A stretch of DNA of 46,090 bases from Myxococcota bacterium (GTDB lineage Bacteria > Myxococcota_A > UBA796 > CAJQPC01), in NCBI GenBank assembly GCA_023150775.1, contig JAKLKE010000012.1, positions 1 through 46,090 of the forward strand, given 5' to 3'. Shown here in pieces: positions 1,216 to 13,628 of the stretch. The position numbers and the translations under genes are program-made. Each line of letters opens with the position of its first letter. Position 1 is the stretch's first letter. The notes beneath the pieces are model-generated. The model was not told the DNA's origin. It made no database searches and saw only the letters and a program-made list of their open reading frames with translations.

Positions 1216-3360
1216 TCACTCGACGACGATCACCGCGTCGTCGCCCTCGGCGAGGGTCACCCCGTCGAGGGTCAACGACTGACCGTGCAGGATCAGCGCC
1301 AAGCCGCCGTCTTCGCTCCACAAAGCGAAGGCGGCGTCTGTGCGGATGACCCCACCGTCGGGCAGGGTGAACGACTCGGGCGCGTCGGGATCCCGGGAGA
1401 GCGCCCAGTGGGTCTCGTCGGCGAGCTGAACCTCGATCAGCGCCCAGCCCTCTCCTTGCGCCACGATGGTCACGGGGAGGGGGCCGTCCTCCTCCCCAAG
1501 CCCAGCGCCGACACGATAGGGCGCGAGCACGGCCAAGAAACCTGGCGCCACGGCGTTCACGACCCCGTCGAGCACGCTGTGGTGGGCCACGTCGCGGCTG
1601 AGGTTAAACTCATGAACGTAGGGCGCCTCAAACGACACAAACTCGGGCGTCGTCGGCGTCAGGCCCGGGGCGGTGGAGGCCAAGGTGACGCGCACCCCGG
1701 CGAGGGACCGCTCCCAGGTGGCGCCGTCGTCGTGCTGGGTGAAGGCGCCGCCGACCTCATCCGACGCCCAGCCGCCCACACGCCAGCGGTGCTCCCTTGG
1801 GCTCGTGGTATCGGGATCTAGGCGGTCCAAGACGATAAAATATCGACCGTCTACGGCGATCAGCGCCCGGCGCTGGTCGGTGTCCTCAAACCGCATCATC
1901 GCCTCGGCCAGCTCGACACGTTCGCCGTCGTGAAGCTGCTCAAAGGTCGCGTCGGTGTCGCCGAAGTTGGTGAGCAGGCCCTTCTCGGGGGCGCCGCGCC
2001 CGTCGATGAGCAGCACGTTGTGCGCATAGGGCTCGCTGGTGACGGCATTGTCGAGCTCGTTGGGTTTGTAATAGCCGGGGTCTACCAGCTCGGCGATAAA
2101 CGACACAAACCGCGCGTCGGCGTCCCAGCCCGAACGAAACACGGCCTCCCCGGCGACGGGCATCAGGCGCGTGAGGAACGGCGGCTCGGTAGGCGCCTCC
2201 TCGGAGACGTAGATGAGGTGATGGGGGATGAGGTTCTGTCCGTGGCTCATCTCCATCGGGCGCTCGGTGACGTTCTCCCAGTCCCAGCGGGTGTGAGGCG
2301 CGCCGCCGAAGCTGGTCAACAAGGCGCCGCCGTTCAGGGGGTTAAAGTAGCCGTCCTCTTTGGGGGCGCGTAGGCCCGAGGGCAGGCGTAGGGTGATCGA
2401 CCAGTCTACGGCGGCGTGAAACTGCGGGTCAAACAGGGGGTTCTGGAAGGTGAAGGGCGCCCCCTCGACGCAGCCGTGGCCGATCCAGGGGTCGATGTCT
2501 TGGCGGTTGCGGCAGTCAGACTCAAACACGGCGTCCGCGTCGAGGCTGTTGTGGGCGGCGATAAAAAACGCCATGGCCGCCGAGAGCCCGAAGCCGTAAT
2601 AAAACGGCCCCTCGGACACACCACCATCGGACTGCACATACTGCCCGGTGGGGCCCCAGAGGTAACTCAGCTCCGACACAGACCAGTTGAGCCACTCTTC
2701 AGCGTCGGGCGCGTCGGGGAAGGCCAAGGCGATCACGCCCACGGCGGAGGCGGTGCGGATGGGGTGATTGTTCTGGGAGACGCCGAGGGTGATCTGTCGC
2801 ATCACGTCCTCCTCAAGGTACTCGTCCCAGAACATCGTCGTGACCTTGATGAGCTTGGTCTCTAAGGCCAAGGCCTCGTCTTCAGGGATGCGCCCGGCGG
2901 CGAGGAGCAGGTCGTGGGCGCTGGCGTAGCCGATCAGGGGGCCGGGCATCCGGATGTTCACGTCCCAGTCGGAGTTGTCCTCAAAGTTGTCGTCAAACAC
3001 TGCCATCGCCGCGCGGCTGAGCTGGGCCGCCGCCTCGGCTTCAGCCTCGTCGTCGCTCAGATACGCGATGGTGGCGGCGCACTCGGCGACGGTGGCGTTG
3101 GCGCCGTGCGCGCCGCTGTCCCAGTCTCCGGGGGTGGGCTCACGAAGGGGCGCGGCGGCGCAGGTGGCCAGCTTCGCCCAGATGGTGGCCCAGGGCTCGT
3201 CGTTGAGGCGGGCGAGGGTGGCGGCGCGGCGGTCCTCGGTGAGCAATAGATGAGGGTGAACCAGGGGCTTGGCGCCCTCAGGCTTGGGCTCATCGCCCCC
3301 GGCGCAGGCCATGATCCCAAGGAGCGGGCTGAGATGGACGATTGTGTTGAGTCGGATCAT
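1216..3360 (-). CDS. Heparinase II/III-like polysaccharide lyase lipoprotein
   Basis: This 714-residue protein begins with a signal peptide ending in a lipobox (GIMAC), so it is probably a lipoprotein on the outer membrane or in the periplasm. After the opening LLLTEDRRAATLARL, typical of the N-terminus of alginate-lyase/heparinase-like proteins, comes a helical toroid-like half up to about residue 330 and then a beta-rich half starting near AGEAVFRSGWD, the heparinase II/III C-terminal pattern. The family cleaves uronic-acid polysaccharides by beta-elimination, leaving unsaturated sugar ends. The gene directly upstream encodes a GH105-like hydrolase, the enzyme class that removes such ends, and the two overlap by ATGA, so translational coupling is likely. 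The substrate cannot be read from sequence. A pectate- or alginate-type lyase of similar fold is an alternative. Confidence 0.75.
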   Translation of the reverse strand: MIRLNTIVHLSPLLGIMACAGGDEPKPEGAKPLVHPHLLLTEDRRAATLARLNDEPWATIWAKLATCAAAPLREPTPGDWDSGAHGANATVAECAATIAYLSDDEAEAEAAAQLSRAAMAVFDDNFEDNSDWDVNIRMPGPLIGYASAHDLLLAAGRIPEDEALALETKLIKVTTMFWDEYLEEDVMRQITLGVSQNNHPIRTASAVGVIALAFPDAPDAEEWLNWSVSELSYLWGPTGQYVQSDGGVSEGPFYYGFGLSAAMAFFIAAHNSLDADAVFESDCRNRQDIDPWIGHGCVEGAPFTFQNPLFDPQFHAAVDWSITLRLPSGLRAPKEDGYFNPLNGGALLTSFGGAPHTRWDWENVTERPMEMSHGQNLIPHHLIYVSEEAPTEPPFLTRLMPVAGEAVFRSGWDADARFVSFIAELVDPGYYKPNELDNAVTSEPYAHNVLLIDGRGAPEKGLLTNFGDTDATFEQLHDGERVELAEAMMRFEDTDQRRALIAVDGRYFIVLDRLDPDTTSPREHRWRVGGWASDEVGGAFTQHDDGATWERSLAGVRVTLASTAPGLTPTTPEFVSFEAPYVHEFNLSRDVAHHSVLDGVVNAVAPGFLAVLAPYRVGAGLGEEDGPLPVTIVAQGEGWALIEVQLADETHWALSRDPDAPESFTLPDGGVIRTDAAFALWSEDGGLALILHGQSLTLDGVTLAEGDDAVIVVE

Positions 3361-4508
3361 GGGGTCTCCGCGCGGGGTCGGCCATCGGCCTCGGCGAAGG
3401 CCAAGGCCACGGCGCCGACGCCTAAGATGATGTCGTCGAGCTGGGCGACGCTCAGGTAGTAGTCGTAATCGCCAGGGTTTGTGCCGAAAGACGTGCCCTT
3501 CACCACCCAGGCGCCGTCTTCATCTTGCTCCACACGCCCCAAGAGGCCGTCGAGCGCCCGGTCGATGGCGGGGTTTGTCTGTGTGGGGTCGAGCAGGCCG
3601 AGGTCTACGCCGCGCATCAGGGCGGTGACGATCAGGGCGGCGGCGGAGGTCTCGGTGTAGTTGTTGTCCTCGGGGGTGGCCGTGAGCACGGTCGGCCAGA
3701 GGCCGTCTTGGGCTTGGGTGCTGAGCACGGCCTCGGCGTGGGCCACAAACGCGACGCCGAGGGCCTCGGCCTGGGGGTGGCCTTGGGGCAGGCGGGCATA
3801 GGTCTCGACGGCCATCAACAGCGCCCAGGAGTTTCCACGGGCCCAATACACGGCCTCGGCGGGGATGTTCTCGCCTGTGGGGACGTCATAGGCGTGGCGA
3901 TAGAGGCCATCGTCTGGGTCTACGAGCAGCGCGACGAAGGCGTCGTGTTGGGTGAGCGCGCTCTGTAAGAACAGGTCATCGCCGGTCTGATCGTGTCGGT
4001 TGAGCGCCGTCACGCCGACCATAAACATCGAGTCTACCCAGACCTGATCGAGGTCCTCAAACACGCTGCCGTCGCCCCAATGTTGGATCGCGCCGTTCTC
4101 GGCGTAGCGGGCGACGCTGAGGTAACGGTCGGCGGCGTCTAGAATCGGGGTGTAGCGGCCGGTGGGCGCTAAGGTCTCTAGGGCGGCGGCGATCATCGCC
4201 GGAGACATTGAGTCCGAGGAGTTGAAGTCTTTGGGCGGGTCGGCGGTGAAGCGCGGCAGCTCGTCGTCCAGCCAGTCTTGGAGGTAAAGATCGACACCTA
4301 AGGACGGGTCAACCTCGTGAACCCCCAGCAGGCCCGTGGCCCACACGGTCTGCATCCAGTCCAGAGGCAGGCTCTCGGCGGGCCAGCGTGTCATGCCTTG
4401 GCTGGCGAGGGCCTGGGCGATGGGCAGGGTGTCGTGGGGCTTGGGCCCGTCTTGCGCCTCGGGGGGCGCGCAGGCGAAGAGCAGGGGGAGCAGGGCGGTG
4501 AGGTGCAT
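3357..4508 (-). CDS. GH88/GH105-like unsaturated glucuronyl/rhamnogalacturonyl hydrolase lipoprotein
   Basis: A 383-residue (alpha/alpha)6-barrel enzyme. WVDSMFM near residue 157 holds the likely catalytic Asp (D159), and YWARGNSWALLM plus ETSAAALI are standard GH105/GH88 landmarks. The family hydrolyses the unsaturated uronic acid that a polysaccharide lyase leaves at the non-reducing end. The start at 4508 gives MHLTALLPLLFAC, a compact lipoprotein signal; an upstream in-frame GTG at 4523 exists but overlaps a -10-like TACAAT that ends six nt before the 4508 ATG, so the downstream start is preferred and the mRNA may be leaderless. The stop overlaps the start of the lyase gene by 4 nt. Together they form a small uronan-degradation unit acting outside the cytoplasm. 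The family call is firm; the sugar specificity is not known. Confidence 0.82.
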   Translation of the reverse strand: MHLTALLPLLFACAPPEAQDGPKPHDTLPIAQALASQGMTRWPAESLPLDWMQTVWATGLLGVHEVDPSLGVDLYLQDWLDDELPRFTADPPKDFNSSDSMSPAMIAAALETLAPTGRYTPILDAADRYLSVARYAENGAIQHWGDGSVFEDLDQVWVDSMFMVGVTALNRHDQTGDDLFLQSALTQHDAFVALLVDPDDGLYRHAYDVPTGENIPAEAVYWARGNSWALLMAVETYARLPQGHPQAEALGVAFVAHAEAVLSTQAQDGLWPTVLTATPEDNNYTETSAAALIVTALMRGVDLGLLDPTQTNPAIDRALDGLLGRVEQDEDGAWVVKGTSFGTNPGDYDYYLSVAQLDDIILGVGAVALAFAEADGRPRAETP

Positions 4509-4514
4509 CTTGGG

Positions 4515-4520
4515 ATTGTA
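4515..4520 (-). promoter_or_regulatory. Putative -10 element (TACAAT) for the GH105/lyase pair
   Basis: On the minus strand GGTGTACAAT ends six nt before the ATG at 4508. The hexamer matches the bacterial -10 consensus at four of six positions, including both A/T anchors. This spacing would place the transcript start at or next to the ATG. No good -35 was seen. Confidence 0.4.
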
Positions 4521-4567
4521 CACCGGGACGGCGCGGGGAATCGGCGCGAAGGCGCAGAGTTTGCCCC

Positions 4568-5476
4568 TCAGCGCGTCAGCTCGACCACCCCGGCCTCGAT
4601 GAGACGCCGCATCAGCGCCTCACGGGCGGGCGGCAGCTCCTTGAGGGTCGGCTCGGCCTGAAGGGACTGAATGAGCGGGCCTTGGCGACCGGCGAGCTCC
4701 ACCCACAGATGTTTGACCTCGACGAGCGGCGAGAGCCCGCCGGCCCCGGCGCGCTCGTGGGACTGGCCGCTCACCACCCCCCGGCAGAGCAGGGTGACGG
4801 GCTGCTCTTCAGCGCGGGCGACGGTGATGAGGCGGTCGCGGCTCACCTGCCCGGCCTCGATCTTGGGGAAGACGTCCTCGGGGCCCACCCCACCCAAGGC
4901 GGCGCGGACAAGCTCGGTGGGCGCGGGCAGCTCGGCGACGAGCAGGTAAGGCGGCAGGCGCAGGCGCCCCCGCTTGAGCTGGGCGCTCGACGGCGGCGAC
5001 GGCGGGCCCGGCGCCTCAGCACGACCGGCGGCCTCACGCAAGGCGGCGGCGTTGTCCACCAAGGCGCGCTCGACGCTGAGCACGGCGCGGATGAGACGCC
5101 CGGCGACCTCGGGGATGTTGTCCTCTAAGGTGTCGAGCAGCGCGCTCAGGTGATCCCCAAAGCGGGCGCTGCGCTCGGCGAGGGGCAAAAAGAGCGCGGG
5201 GCCGCTCAAAAATCGAGAGAGCGCCCGGGGGTTGTCGGCGCCGATGGCGGCGGCGCTCAAGGGGTAAGCGCGGCAGAGCGCGGCCATGAGGTAACGGCGG
5301 CGCCCCTCAGCGTCGGCCTGCAGCCCGGCGAGGCTCATCGCGCAGAACCGCGCCCGATCCACCTCGGCGAGCCCGTGCTGATGCAACACAGAGTCGCGGT
5401 CGGCGGCGAAGGCGTCGCGCAGCTCCTCGTCAAACAGGAGGCGCTCGTAGAGCGTCCAGGCCGCTGTGGGGCTCAC
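4568..5476 (-). CDS. MNIO (DUF692) partner protein, LigA/Nif11-like N-terminus
   Basis: A 302-residue soluble protein with a GTG start inside the stop codon of the DUF692 gene (GTGA overlap), so the two are translationally coupled. The first 45 residues (YERLLFDEELRDAFAADRD, then VLHQHGL) resemble the short helical LigA/Nif11-type domain. The middle is helical up to about residue 150, followed by a Pro/Ala linker and a C-terminal mixed region ending in a winged-helix-like stretch (PPAREALMRRLIEAGVVEL). MNIO enzymes usually need a partner that binds the precursor peptide (MbnC, TglI-type); position, coupling and size fit that role. I do not recognise a named family, so partner function is an inference from context. 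No signal peptide or membrane segment is present. Confidence 0.6.
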   Translation of the reverse strand: MSPTAAWTLYERLLFDEELRDAFAADRDSVLHQHGLAEVDRARFCAMSLAGLQADAEGRRRYLMAALCRAYPLSAAAIGADNPRALSRFLSGPALFLPLAERSARFGDHLSALLDTLEDNIPEVAGRLIRAVLSVERALVDNAAALREAAGRAEAPGPPSPPSSAQLKRGRLRLPPYLLVAELPAPTELVRAALGGVGPEDVFPKIEAGQVSRDRLITVARAEEQPVTLLCRGVVSGQSHERAGAGGLSPLVEVKHLWVELAGRQGPLIQSLQAEPTLKELPPAREALMRRLIEAGVVELTR

Positions 5477-6384
5477 CGGGACTCCTGGGCCAGCTCGGCC
5501 TTGACCTTCTCGCGCAGCTCTGTAGACGCGGCGCCCAAGAGCACACGCTCCCGCGCCCGGCGGAGCAGCGGCAGGGCCGTAGACGCGGCGGCGCCTTCAC
5601 ACTCCACACAGACCGCCTTGAGGTTCTCACAGCGCGACAACAGCAGGCGAAACACCTGCCAGGTCTCGGGCAGGGGCGGGAGATCGTGGGCGTCGAGGTA
5701 GATCGGCTGGCCGTCGCGGGTCTGAATCACGCCCCCGGCGATGTGCAGCTCGACCACACGGGAGAGGTCCAAGGTGTCGAGGCCGTCGCCCAAGCCCGCG
5801 CCCCGGGCGAGCTGGTGGGAGACGACGTGCCCGGCGTCGAGCAAGAGGCCGCTGTCTGTGCGGCGGCTCAGCTCGGCCAAAAAGGTGAAGATGTCGAGCT
5901 CACCCAAGGTGAAGGTGACCGGCGCGGGCTCCAACAGAAGCGGCGCGTCCACGGCCTGCCGCACCTCCATCACCCGCATGACGGCCTCATCCAGAGACTC
6001 CGGGGTCAAGATCGGCGGCACAAAGTAGCCGAGCTGAATGGAGTAGCCCGGGGTGTCGCCGACAAAACAGACGGCCACGTCCTGCGCCAGCCAGGCCGAG
6101 CCCACGGCGCGCACATGGGCGCCCACGGCGTCGAGCCAGGGCCGAGGGTTGGGGTAGGGGCCGCAGAGGTTGAGGCAGCTCGGGTGGTAGAGCACGGGCA
6201 CACCCAGGCGGCGGAGCTCGGCGAGGGGGCGCTCCATGAAGCTGTGCTGCACGGCGCCCGCGTACTCGATGAACGCCGGGCCGCCTCGGGCGCGGGCCAA
6301 GGCCACGGGGTCGGGCTCGGCGCCGAAGCTCAGGCTGACGCCGACGCCGAGGGTGGGCAGGGACGCGGGGGTGAAGGGGGTCAC
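5473..6384 (-). CDS. DUF692-family multinuclear non-heme iron oxidase (MNIO)
   Basis: A 303-residue TIM-barrel-type protein of the DUF692/MNIO family, whose members (MbnB, TglH and others) use two or three iron ions and O2 to remodel cysteines or backbone atoms in peptides. Likely metal ligands are H67 (YHPSC), E152 (LLLEPAP), D183 and H186/H190 (LLDAGHVVSH), H214 (VELHIAGG), D231/H233 (LDAHDLP) and E261. The SEHL-type ligand motif expected near residue 100 reads AQDV here, so this is a divergent member. The GTG at 6384 is chosen because the family N-terminus (GVGVSLSF) starts right after it and a TAGACT -10-like element lies seven nt upstream. It is coupled to the partner gene downstream. 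No short precursor-peptide gene is visible nearby. Confidence 0.8.
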   Translation of the reverse strand: MTPFTPASLPTLGVGVSLSFGAEPDPVALARARGGPAFIEYAGAVQHSFMERPLAELRRLGVPVLYHPSCLNLCGPYPNPRPWLDAVGAHVRAVGSAWLAQDVAVCFVGDTPGYSIQLGYFVPPILTPESLDEAVMRVMEVRQAVDAPLLLEPAPVTFTLGELDIFTFLAELSRRTDSGLLLDAGHVVSHQLARGAGLGDGLDTLDLSRVVELHIAGGVIQTRDGQPIYLDAHDLPPLPETWQVFRLLLSRCENLKAVCVECEGAAASTALPLLRRARERVLLGAASTELREKVKAELAQESR

Positions 6385-6447: not shown

Positions 6448-7299
6448 GTGCCGCGTGTGATCGTCTTCGACTTCGACGGGACCATGACCGACGCCGAGCG
6501 GGAGGGCGCGCCCTTTCGTGGCGGCTACCTGGAGGACCTCGCGGCGCTCACCGGCCTGCCCTTGGCCGAGATCGAGGCCAGCGCGGCCCGGTTTGAGGCC
6601 GAGGTCGCCGCGAACCCCCAGCGCTTCGGCTGGATCTTCGGCGGCCACATCGTCGCCCCGGCCATCGTCGATCCTTACCTGCGCATGATGCCCGTCGCCC
6701 GTCGTATCTTGGACGAGGCGGGCGCTTTTATGGTGGAGGCCGAGCGCAGCCGCCTGCTCGACGCCATCCTCTACAAGTACAACTACACGAAGACCCACAT
6801 CGCCTTTCGGGAGGGCGCCCGGGAGCTGCTCTTGGGGCTCCAGGGCCAAGAGGTCCACATCGTCACGAACTCCCACACCGACGCCGTTCAGCACAAGCTC
6901 AAGGTGCTGGGAACAGGCAACGACGGTGTTGACTCCTTGGCCTGGCTGCAGGCCCGGGTGGTGGGGCGGGCGCGTAAATACATCATCGACCCCAGCTTTG
7001 AGGCTGTGCCCGAGGCGCTCACGCTGCCCGGGCTCTCCAGGCCGGTGCTGCTGCGCCGCAAGCACTACCATGACGTGCTGGAGGGCATCCTCAACGCCGC
7101 CGGGGCGAGCTGGTCGGAGCTGACGGTGGTGGGCGACATCTTTGAGCTCGACCTGTGCTTGCCCGCGGCGATGGGGGCCACGGTGGCGCTGATCACCAAC
7201 CCCTTCACGCCGGACTACGAGCGGGCGTACCTCGCCTCGATCCCCAACGGGCGCCTGCTCTCCACGCTCAGCGAAGCGGCGCCGCTGGTGGCCGAATGA
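6448..7299 (+). CDS. HAD-superfamily hydrolase (phosphatase-like)
   Basis: A 283-residue cytosolic protein opening with VIVFDFDGTMTD, the HAD nucleophile motif DxDGT with D as nucleophile and the second Asp as general acid. Motif II is IVTNSHTD and motif III/IV lies in VVGDIFELDLCLPAAMG, which carries the Mg-binding acidic residues. HAD enzymes dephosphorylate small molecules or proteins; the substrate is not evident. The GTG start is set by a strong AAGGAG five nt upstream; the reading frame is open further 5' but that part is antisense to the MNIO gene. The gene is divergent from the MNIO operon (63-bp spacer) and overlaps the next gene by ATGA. Assignment to the superfamily is firm. Confidence 0.85.
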   Translation: MPRVIVFDFDGTMTDAEREGAPFRGGYLEDLAALTGLPLAEIEASAARFEAEVAANPQRFGWIFGGHIVAPAIVDPYLRMMPVARRILDEAGAFMVEAERSRLLDAILYKYNYTKTHIAFREGARELLLGLQGQEVHIVTNSHTDAVQHKLKVLGTGNDGVDSLAWLQARVVGRARKYIIDPSFEAVPEALTLPGLSRPVLLRRKHYHDVLEGILNAAGASWSELTVVGDIFELDLCLPAAMGATVALITNPFTPDYERAYLASIPNGRLLSTLSEAAPLVAE

Positions 7300-8015: not shown

Positions 8016-9442
8016 ATCGGGTTCCGGCTGATCACCACGAGCACGTCGCCTTCGCGGATCACCTCCGCCGAGGGCGGGTTCACCATCACGTCGCGGTGGT
8101 GCCGTTTGCCCGAGCCCCGGCGCTCCAAGCTCACGAGGATCGCCTCGTGGTCCCGTTTGAGATCGGCGGAGGCCTCGCCGACGGTGCGCCCGATCCAGGG
8201 CCTGGGGCAGCCGACCTTATGAAAGGCGTTGCCGCGCTGGGCGGTGAGGATGTCGGAGAGCACGGCGACGAGGCCCTGGTTTCGCCCCACAGACGCCAAG
8301 ATCACCCCGGTGTACCAGTCGCCGATGACGATCTCCTCGACCCCCGACATCCGCAAGAGCCCCTCGTGCATGTCGCTGTTGAGCTGGGCGCAGCAGAAGA
8401 CCTCGGGCGCGAGGCGCTCGATGGTGAGCGCGGCGAGCACGGTGCGGGCGTCGCGGTCTGATGGGGGGCGCGGGCTGAGGTTGTCGTCGAGCAAGATCGC
8501 CGTAGACGCCCGGCGAACCCCGGCTTTCTCCAGAAGATCCACCCGCGTCCAGTCGCCCTTGAGGTGGTACACAAGCTCCATTTTTACCCCGGCTGTGGGG
8601 AAGTTGGCCGGCAGCTTGTCTTGTTCGGTGAGCAGCACCAAGGCGCGGTGGGGCTCGTGCATCGCCGAGAAGAACTCTTGCACGAGCGCGGGGCCCGCCT
8701 GGTTCCAACCACAGACGACGATGTGCTCATTGAGGTCATCTAGCTCCATCTCGGCGATCTCCATTCGTTTTCCGAGCACGGCCATCATGCCCGCGGACAC
8801 CGTGCCGACGAACACACCGAAGGTCGTCATGCCGCCGACCATCAACGCGAGGCTCACAGCCCGGCCGAGCTGGCTCTGGGGCACGCCGCCGAGGGGCTCA
8901 CCGCCCACGAGGGTGAACACGGCGAACCACAGACCCCCCTCGATGCCTTGGGTGTCAAGGCGCACGATCTCGGGGAACACATGAACGGTCACCGCCCCGA
9001 TGAGCGTGATCGTCAAGGTGAGGGTGATGAGCGCCGTGACCTCGTTGGACGTGCCCGAGAAGAGCCCGCCGTAGACGCTCATGCGGCGGCTGAGCAGGGT
9101 GCCCGCACGAAACAGCCGCAAGAGCAGCAGCACCCGCAACAGACGCAGGGGCCGAAACAGGGGCAAGAGCGCGATGAGATCGAGCAGGTGACGCCGCAAG
9201 AAGCGCCAGCGGTTCGGCGCGAGCCACCCCCGCAGGGCGAGCTCGACGGCGAACACGAGGGTGAGGGCGTCGGAGACGTTCTGTAAGGTGCGCCGGGCCA
9301 GGCTCCCCACGGGCAAGGCCAGCTCCACGAGCAGGCCCAAGACCGAGATGAAGATGAGCGCGACGATGCCCAGCTCCACCTTGGGGTGGTTGAGCACCTG
9401 GGCGACACGCTCCCGAAGGGGCCTCTTCGCCGCCAGACTCAC
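8000..9442 (-). CDS. Voltage-gated-type ion channel with RCK/TrkA-N domains, non-canonical filter
   Basis: A 480-residue membrane protein. Hydrophobic segments cover about residues 20-45, 55-72, 82-110, 135-158 and 195-222; RPLRLLRVLLLLRLFR at about 97-112 looks like an Arg-rich S4 voltage-sensor helix. The pore loop between the last two segments reads LWFAVFTLVGGEPLGG (171-186): the K+ filter TVGYGD is absent. From residue 240 a TrkA-N/RCK nucleotide-binding fold begins (IVVCGWNQAG), followed by a second RCK-like half. The layout resembles CASTOR/POLLUX channels, which also lack GYG. Ion selectivity is therefore unclear. The GTG start overlaps the upstream lipoprotein stop by 4 nt, making it the last gene of the operon that starts at 11684. 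Confidence 0.78.
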   Translation of the reverse strand: MSLAAKRPLRERVAQVLNHPKVELGIVALIFISVLGLLVELALPVGSLARRTLQNVSDALTLVFAVELALRGWLAPNRWRFLRRHLLDLIALLPLFRPLRLLRVLLLLRLFRAGTLLSRRMSVYGGLFSGTSNEVTALITLTLTITLIGAVTVHVFPEIVRLDTQGIEGGLWFAVFTLVGGEPLGGVPQSQLGRAVSLALMVGGMTTFGVFVGTVSAGMMAVLGKRMEIAEMELDDLNEHIVVCGWNQAGPALVQEFFSAMHEPHRALVLLTEQDKLPANFPTAGVKMELVYHLKGDWTRVDLLEKAGVRRASTAILLDDNLSPRPPSDRDARTVLAALTIERLAPEVFCCAQLNSDMHEGLLRMSGVEEIVIGDWYTGVILASVGRNQGLVAVLSDILTAQRGNAFHKVGCPRPWIGRTVGEASADLKRDHEAILVSLERRGSGKRHHRDVMVNPPSAEVIREGDVLVVISRNPIHLGV

Positions 9443-11738: not shown

Positions 11739-13628
11739 TCAGTAGCTCACGAGGCTCGCGTCGCCCATGAGCGTGCCGCCCAGGGCGTTGGGGCCCTCGT
11801 CCGTCGCCGAGGACTCAAAGCTCCAGTAGCCCTGAAGGTCGGTCTCGGCGCCGGTGAGCGCGCTGCACATCGTCGACTGCACCTCGGCCTGGCTGCGCGC
11901 CGTCGTCCACAGCCGCACCTCGTCGAGCATCCCTTGCCAGTCGTTCCAGGCGGAGCCGAGCTGCAGGTAGGCCGGGGTGGTCACATCGGCGGTCTGGAAC
12001 TCGGCGGAGGTGGTGTAGCTGCCCGCGTCCTCGCCGTTGAAGTAGAACTGCACCGTGCCCGCGCTGCGGTCGCTGACGATGGCGATGTGAATCCACTCGC
12101 CGATGGCCATGCCCGAGCTCGACAAGCCCGTGCCGCTGATCGGGGCCGTGCGCGCCGCGTTCCAGCCGGTCACCTCCAGCTCCACCAGACCCGTGCTCTC
12201 GTAGACGTCGATGACCCACCAGGGGTTGGAGGGGTAGCCGCCGTTGGAGTGGTTGAGCAGGCGGGCCTGGCCGGGGGTGTTGGCCCCGGAGAGGTGCTCG
12301 GCGAGGGTCCACAGCTCGATCGTCCAGTCGCCGGTGCCCCAGGCCAAGGCGCTCGACGCGTTGACGTAGACGTAGTCGTCGCTCCCGGGCATGTCCAAGG
12401 CGCCGACGCCCATGTCGCGCACGCCGTCGAGGTCGAGGTCTACGTCGATGATCTCGCCGTCGCAGTCGTTGTCTACGCTGTCGCATAATTCGATGGCGCC
12501 GTCATACACGGCGGCGTCGAGGTCGTCGCAGTCGGCGCCAGCGCCGCTGAGGCTGTCTTGGCCGTCGCCGTCTTGGTCGTAGTCGCTGCCGCCGGAGCAG
12601 TCCTGATCGACGCCGTCGTACCAGGTCTCGGACGCGGCGGGGCTCACCGTGGCGTCGCCGTCGTCGCAGTCGCCCCCGGTGGTCGTGGTGCCCGAGGGCT
12701 GCACGCAGGCGACGCTCAGGCGGCCGTCGTCGCCGTAGCCGTCGTTGTCGTCATCGGCGGCGTAGGTCCCGGCGGTGCTGAGATCGAGGCTGGGGTCGGC
12801 GTCGTCGATGAGGCTGTCGCAGTCGTTGTCGCGGCTGTCGCACACCTCGCTGGCGTCGGGGTTCACCGTGGCGTCGCCGTCGTCGCAGTCTGTGGCGGCC
12901 TCGGCGTACCCGGCGCTGAGCGCGCAGGCGGCGTCGGGGTAGTCGGCGTCCCCGTGGCCGTCGCCGTCGCCGTCGCGGTAGTAGGTGGTCGTCACGCCCT
13001 CATCCACGGCGCCGTCGCAGTTGTTGTCTAAGGTGTCGCACACCTCCGTCCCGGCGGGGTTCACCGTGGGCTGGCTGTCGTCGCAGTCTTCACAGGCCGC
13101 GAAGCCGTCCGAGTCGGCGTCGTCGTAGCCGACGGAGCCGTCGCAGTTGTAGTCGTTGGGGTCGGCGCAGTCGGTCTCGGCGGCGCCGGGGTTGAACTGG
13201 GCGTCGGCGTCGTCGCAGTCCCCGGCGAGGGCGGCGTAGCCCTCGGGGGCCTCACAGGCGGCGAGGCCCTCGCCGTCAACCCCATAGCCGTCGCCATCTC
13301 CGTCGCGGTAGAAGGTGCTCGTCACGCCCTCGTCGATGGCGCCGTCGCAGTTGTTGTCGGTGTTGTCGCAGAGCTCGACGGCGCCGGGGTAGGCGCTCGG
13401 ATCGTTGTCGTCGCAGTCCTCGTCGGCGCTCACGCCGTCGCCGTCGTTGTCTGTGGGGGCGCTGGAGTCCCCGCCGCCGGAGTCATCGACGTCGGAGTCG
13501 CCGCCCGAGTCGCCCGCCCCGCTGTCGGCGCCGCTGTCTTGGCCCGTGAGGCCGGTCTCAACCGGTGTCTCATCTTTGGTGCGACATGCGACAAGAAGAA
13601 GGATCAGGGGCAGGGTGGTGAGGCGCAT
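11739..13628 (-). CDS. Lipoprotein with MopE-type repeats and LamG-like domain
   Basis: A 629-residue lipoprotein (MRLTTLPLILLLVAC). A Ser/Asp/Gly-rich stalk (20-60) leads into seven or so Asp/Cys repeats of the MopE / putative metal-binding type (DCDDxDxxxxPGAxExCDxxDNxCDGxxDEG) to about residue 400. The C-terminal 220 residues form a concanavalin-like jellyroll of the LamG type (TGDWTIELWTLAEH, GEWIHIAIVSD, LDEVRLWTTARS, LQGYWSFE). Such domains bind carbohydrates or proteins, so a surface adhesin or glycan-binding protein is plausible. GGAG lies just upstream of the ATG. It is 47 nt downstream of the DUF1501 gene and may share its transcript. Confidence 0.82.
   Translation of the reverse strand: MRLTTLPLILLLVACRTKDETPVETGLTGQDSGADSGAGDSGGDSDVDDSGGGDSSAPTDNDGDGVSADEDCDDNDPSAYPGAVELCDNTDNNCDGAIDEGVTSTFYRDGDGDGYGVDGEGLAACEAPEGYAALAGDCDDADAQFNPGAAETDCADPNDYNCDGSVGYDDADSDGFAACEDCDDSQPTVNPAGTEVCDTLDNNCDGAVDEGVTTTYYRDGDGDGHGDADYPDAACALSAGYAEAATDCDDGDATVNPDASEVCDSRDNDCDSLIDDADPSLDLSTAGTYAADDDNDGYGDDGRLSVACVQPSGTTTTGGDCDDGDATVSPAASETWYDGVDQDCSGGSDYDQDGDGQDSLSGAGADCDDLDAAVYDGAIELCDSVDNDCDGEIIDVDLDLDGVRDMGVGALDMPGSDDYVYVNASSALAWGTGDWTIELWTLAEHLSGANTPGQARLLNHSNGGYPSNPWWVIDVYESTGLVELEVTGWNAARTAPISGTGLSSSGMAIGEWIHIAIVSDRSAGTVQFYFNGEDAGSYTTSAEFQTADVTTPAYLQLGSAWNDWQGMLDEVRLWTTARSQAEVQSTMCSALTGAETDLQGYWSFESSATDEGPNALGGTLMGDASLVSY

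Follow-up and report, generated by a model that had tools for sequence, protein, structure and literature searches.

An MNIO gene overlapping a partner gene

The window, by which we mean the whole 46,090-nucleotide stretch of DNA analysed here, carries on its reverse strand the gene for an MNIO (DUF692) enzyme, followed by the gene for a 302-residue partner protein. The features of the pair are listed below.

5473..6384, (-) strand: MNIO (DUF692, PF05114) enzyme, 303 aa, with a GTG start at 6384
5473..5476, (-) strand: GTGA stop/start overlap of the MNIO and partner genes, read from the sequence
4568..5476, (-) strand: putative MNIO partner of divergent DUF2063-RRE type (PME-type 2), 302 aa (hhalign, AF2 model, weak PDB match)
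5312..5476, (-) strand: N-terminal ~55 aa of the partner, NHLP/Nif11-leader-like helices (Os1348 NHLP model in the best family member; 6lk7)
5024..5302, (-) strand: partner residues 59-151, DUF2063-like helical region (hhalign match from R59; AF2 helices H56-69 to H123-151)
4571..4987, (-) strand: partner residues 164-302, C-terminal beta/HTH region, RRE-like (AF2 secondary structure; weak fold match to 3dee)
6079..6081, (-) strand: codon of D102, in place of a His ligand (TglH H107 / MbnB H91) in alignments to TglH, 3BWW and MbnB
5827..5829, (-) strand: codon of H186, in place of the site-3 Asn ligand (TglH N187) in the same kind of alignment

Both reading frames, and the GTGA overlap that couples them, are as an earlier note on this DNA had described. 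The enzyme scored 79.2 bits with PF05114, for which the Pfam gathering cut-off is 25, so that the DUF692 profile match whose absence would have counted against an MNIO was found. A phmmer comparison matched it to TglH (8hci, E 1.2e-8) and to 3BWW. None of the NCBIfam equivalog cut-offs for MbnB, ChrH, ApyH, BufB and HvfB was reached, the top scores being 68 bits of 400 for ApyH and 65 of 310 for BufB. Assignment to a characterised MNIO equivalog was rejected on these scores, in agreement with the earlier description of the enzyme as a divergent DUF692/MNIO protein.

The fold was assessed using an AF2 model of L041, a naturally fused ortholog 61% identical to the window enzyme, built from an alignment of fused and MNIO rows only. 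The MNIO half of this model was mostly confident and the partner half poor (whole-model mean pLDDT 71.6, pTM 0.62). Foldseek returned chains of TglH, 3BWW and MbnB as the top seven PDB matches, followed by xylose-isomerase-like barrels; sugar epimerases were also among the lower-ranked matches. The ortholog model supports, for the window MNIO, a TIM-barrel fold closest to MbnB and TglH.

A fixed two-residue change in the iron-site ligands

The iron ligands of TglH are H71, H107, E151, D184, N187, H216, D229, H231 and E258 (PMC10880893). In the alignment these correspond, in order, to H67, D102, E152, D183, H186, H214, D231, H233 and E263 of the window enzyme, which keeps seven of the nine residues of the canonical H-H-E-D-N-H-D-H-E set, with Asp at TglH H107 and His at N187. 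The segment W98-L-A-Q-D102-V aligns with the SDHL/NHC motif and puts D102 at the ligand His of TglH (H107), 3BWW and MbnB (H91). The AQDV sequence that had been reported in place of an SEHL-type motif is therefore real, with Asp in place of a ligand His; that most metal-ligand motifs are present also stood, and the second swap, at H186, had been missed. The loss of metal ligands, which was to tell against an MNIO, was checked through the alignment and the fold match, and neither refuted the assignment.

Twelve positions (E40, H67, N72, D102, E152, D183, H186, H214, D231, H233, E261 and E263) show no variation in 47/47 homologs across the phylum, among which overall identity falls to about 30%. 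His and Asn occupy the D102 and H186 columns in the aligned structurally characterised MNIOs (3BWW, TglH and VcMbnB) and in seven outgroup MNIOs of the same bacterial class. In described enzymes, the substrate Cys is bound by the iron of site 1, which has two His ligands (PMC13419390), and it follows from the alignment that D102 would lie at this substrate-binding site. By its aligned residues the window site is a variant ligand set and not the canonical one. No description of an Asp ligand variant was found in the MNIO literature searched, and absence there is no proof.

The missing catalytic-site His, together with the lack of a substrate gene, could mean that the locus is a remnant, or encodes a catalytically dead MNIO that only binds. 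This is very improbable, given that the twelve active-site positions, D102 and H186 included, are unchanged in every homolog. Such invariance despite low identity points to selection on the active site.

The partner resembles DUF2063-RRE proteins

The partner had been called unfamiliar. A Pfam search with the window protein gave nothing above cut-off, and PF09836 (DUF2063) matched none of the 22 partner family members. In a profile comparison, hhalign aligned the partner profile to that of bona fide DUF2063 proteins, members from the same class found by PF09836, with a probability of 94, an E-value of 1e-7 and a score of 59 over 187 collinear columns. Twenty column-shuffled controls scored at most 15.9, and at most 17.3 when one reversed and one unrelated profile were included. 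The AF2 model of the partner (pLDDT 93.4, pTM 0.90) has an all-helical N-terminal half and a beta/helix-turn-helix C-terminal part. Its best PDB match in Foldseek was the DUF2063-RRE protein NGO1945 (3dee), a weak match (E 0.18, prob 0.77, TM 0.41 on the target). Profile and model together indicate a divergent MNIO partner of DUF2063-RRE type, and thus of a familiar kind.

The name PME-type 2 was given to such partners by Antoine et al. 2025, whose examples include a 276-aa protein of Plesiocystis pacifica (Myxococcota) (PMC12452194). As in that type, the window partner is encoded directly after an MNIO gene, has no DUF2063 signature and is remotely homologous to DUF2063-RRE proteins by hhalign, with the weak 3dee match alongside. 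Like PME-type 2 proteins, which measure about 260 aa (PMC12452194), it is laid out as a helical part and an RRE. The window family differs in the NHLP-leader-like character of its first 55 residues and in being sometimes fused to the MNIO; the likeness to the Plesiocystis protein is one of published description. The claim that the partner is larger than usual holds only in part, since split family members have partners of 227-302 aa, against about 250-260 aa for known PME-type 1 proteins (PMC12452194).

For the N-terminus, described earlier as LigA/Nif11-like, NHLP-leader-like is the better label. NCBIfam NHLP models gave low E-values in 4/22 members (best 3.4e-8, Os1348 NHLP), with the window partner under every cut-off, and PDB 6lk7 matched the partner N-terminus with an E-value of 0.0012. 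The window partner also matched IniB_NTERM (E 0.0015). A LigA domain was rejected, its PF07746 match being sub-threshold (E 0.19).

Linkage, fusion and phylogeny of the pair

A protein search of 71 genomes of the class recovered orthologs at 94% (same genus, genome G004), 61% and 58% identity, and a larger set near 35%. The partner profile matched 60/379 Myxococcota genomes. At 47 of the 52 partner-domain loci, an MNIO is encoded directly 5' of the partner or fused to it, so the two are conserved together in relatives, as the earlier note had proposed to check. Most split relatives share the same four-base overlap, while seven loci (L040, L041, L046, L050, L053, L055 and L103) encode both proteins in one natural open reading frame, and the tree requires at least five changes between split and fused states. 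High activity is reported for an artificial HvfB-HvfC fusion, and the mixed-valent state there depends on the partner (PMC13419390); the natural fusions therefore fit an MNIO-partner holoenzyme. Four partner homologs stand without an adjacent MNIO (L102, L104, L105 and L107; a further one, L106, is at a contig edge), so that the partner may also have roles independent of an MNIO.

In the tree, clade W, a rare group, comprises the window enzyme and three others, clade B 43 members spread over the phylum, and clade T3 six. Together they split from canonical MNIOs (SH-aLRT 99-100 for each), in a tree where long branches meet and which does not fix the branching order among the three.

Ordinary pairs were also seen: the window's genome has a separate MNIO-DUF2063 pair on contig C315, and canonical MNIO-DUF2063 pairs with His/Asn ligands in the same class (L125, L126 and L128) are likewise naturally fused. 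Beside the MNIO-less partner homologs L104 and L105 lie a BoxB-like protein, recognised by eye, and a Cys-rich lipoprotein.

Gene neighbourhood and the missing precursor

The neighbours agree with those first reported: a HAD protein (PF00702), an exported MBL-fold protein (PF00753), a GH88 protein (PF07470) and a heparinase II/III-like protein (sub-threshold). The GH88 gene (3357-4523) is on the strand of the partner, about 45 bp downstream of it, and overlaps the heparinase-like gene; on the other side, the gap between the MNIO start and the HAD GTG (read at 6449) is 64 bp. These gaps leave hardly any space for an overlooked precursor next to the pair. The HAD, MBL and polysaccharide neighbours are not common to family members outside the genus, and for this reason say little about function. 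At 1-1202 and 11739-13628 the window encodes secreted proteins carrying DxDxDG...DCDD repeats of a calcium-binding-like kind; such proteins also occur at related loci.

The close spacing of GH88 to the partner gene, and the sugar epimerases and isomerase-like barrels among the lower-ranked PDB matches, would suit a sugar or small-molecule enzyme with a xylose-isomerase-like TIM barrel, accompanied by the downstream GH88 and heparinase-like lipoproteins. We give this reading little credence: the PF05114 match is specific, the ligand positions are those of a full MNIO set, the seven best fold matches are all MNIOs, the partner is of DUF2063-RRE type, and outside the genus the sugar genes are not adjacent to the pair.

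No precursor gene had been noticed near the pair, and none is visible at the window or across the family. In an all-against-all comparison of neighbouring reading frames (at least 30 aa, blastp E<1e-4, below which a very short or variable precursor could slip), no precursor or other gene was widely shared around the 47 loci. The arrangement thus differs from a RiPP gene cluster, in which a precursor gene accompanies the enzymes. Since a RiPP precursor may be small and lack annotation, a nearby one could be lineage-specific and too short or variable for a comparison with these limits. We consider this unlikely, as the gaps flanking the window pair are narrow, upstream neighbours in other loci are unrelated, and a precursor-like gene was easily found in clade T3.

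Modification in cis, with the MNIO acting on its own partner or on itself, would explain both the absence of a separate precursor at 47 loci and the seven natural fusions, and the earlier note had offered the partner as a possible substrate. Only six columns of the partner family are at least 90% conserved (D16, D55, R59, F89, E136 and R147), and column conservation revealed no Cys or other obvious target residue, the conserved positions being scattered and probably structural. In addition, a recognition role of a known type already accounts for the partner, and a cis substrate is accordingly hard to credit.

The most recurrent neighbour is a TANGO2/NRDE gene, present at six loci that all belong to one bacterial family. 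In L081, L086, L088, L089 and L096 it is the gene directly upstream of the clade B MNIO, at 0-14 bp, and in L085 it is nearby. TANGO2 was rejected as a substrate, being absent from the window's genome and not tracking the pair.

A candidate substrate family in clade T3

Clade T3 shows the same Asp/His ligand swap as the window family, and its partner, which is PME-type 2-like, has a profile that matches that of the window partner family. Directly upstream of the T3 MNIO in four loci is a gene for a lipoprotein with NCYGPC and PYCYNLPC motifs, listed here as a candidate new MNIO substrate family.

L143:1680-2246, L144:366-932, L132:4658-5242, and L145: lipoproteins encoded upstream of the T3 MNIO

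The family has no Pfam or NCBIfam match, and a search of the window's genome and genus for its members gave no match. The position of this conserved lipoprotein suggests that, in T3 at least, enzymes with the Asp/His ligand set probably act on proteins. By analogy, the enzymes of clades W and B may also act on proteins, encoded in trans.

Comparison with known systems

The pair resembles TglHI, which makes 3-thiaglutamate (8hci/8hi7), in joining a TIM-barrel MNIO to a partner with a helical N-terminal and an RRE C-terminal domain, and the ligand positions align. It differs from TglHI in having Asp and His at TglH H107 and N187, and in lacking a counterpart of the TglA precursor found in the Tgl cluster. 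BufBC and HvfBC (bufferins, oxazolins) have the same gene order, an MNIO followed by a DUF2063-RRE partner, and similar partner profiles. A further likeness is that HvfBC works as an artificial fusion. However, the window partner does not match the DUF2063 model, the enzyme falls far short of the equivalog cut-offs for BufB and HvfB, and no Cys-containing precursor with a Sec signal lies in front. ApyHI (aminopyruvatide) offers the closest NCBIfam MNIO model, ApyH, and, together with an RRE partner, targets a residue other than Cys; the window enzyme is nonetheless far under the 400-bit cut-off, and no ApyA, P450, B12-rSAM or methyltransferase was seen nearby.

MNIO enzymes, PME-type 2 partners and protein substrates of MNIOs are already known. 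In the literature searched we found no description of the fixed swap of two ligands, of the orphan arrangement across the phylum, or of the recurrent partner fusions.

Proposed function

The fold, the conserved ligand positions, the partner type, the linkage and fusion of the two genes and the lack of a shared neighbour are consistent with an active MNIO-partner holoenzyme that acts in trans to oxidise a peptide or protein, using a re-tuned substrate-binding iron site; we regard this as the likely function of the pair. The protein encoded at 5473-6384 would be an oxidase built on a TIM barrel, with two or three irons in its metal site. Its DUF2063-RRE-type partner (4568-5476) would capture the peptide or protein substrate and offer a single residue of it to the iron site. 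There a mixed-valent iron pair would activate O2, as it does in MbnBC and HvfBC of the same enzyme family. Because no substrate gene is nearby, the substrate would be supplied in trans. Iron binding, activity, substrate class and chemistry are thus inferred for the pair.

With the His-to-Asp change, site 1, the iron that binds substrate, would lose one of its two expected His ligands, and site 3 would be altered by the change from Asn to His. As both are fixed, they suggest that the substrate binding mode or the reaction has changed relative to Cys-modifying MNIOs. Speculatively, the Asp might bring down the redox potential or make the site better suited to a substrate that is not a thiolate.

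A wider proposal, which we put forward tentatively and with some doubt, is that W, B and T3 form a Myxococcota MNIO superclade whose fixed Asp-for-His/His-for-Asn iron site has its own chemistry, with W and B as trans-acting, stand-alone protein-modification machines outside RiPP clusters. If this were true, the W and B clades would be enzyme-partner machines acting on a cellular protein encoded elsewhere. A widespread Asp subfamily with natural fusions and without a local substrate offers a system for asking how the reaction is governed by the iron site, and whether ordinary proteins are among the trans substrates of MNIOs. Being single chains, the natural fusions sidestep the weak enzyme-partner binding that hampered work on HvfBC, and the T3 relatives offer a testable substrate for the Asp/His ligand set.

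Other possible substrates encoded beside MNIO genes

In the window's genome (G000), contig C159 encodes three tandem twin-arginine-signal-like proteins with an end motif of the CGMGHVxxWxxRYLYWN type (L136:6124-8642 and 8689-9149), preceding an MNIO gene cut by the contig end. A similar protein lies before an MNIO at L135:5062-6312. These twin-arginine proteins are possible Tat-exported MNIO substrates.
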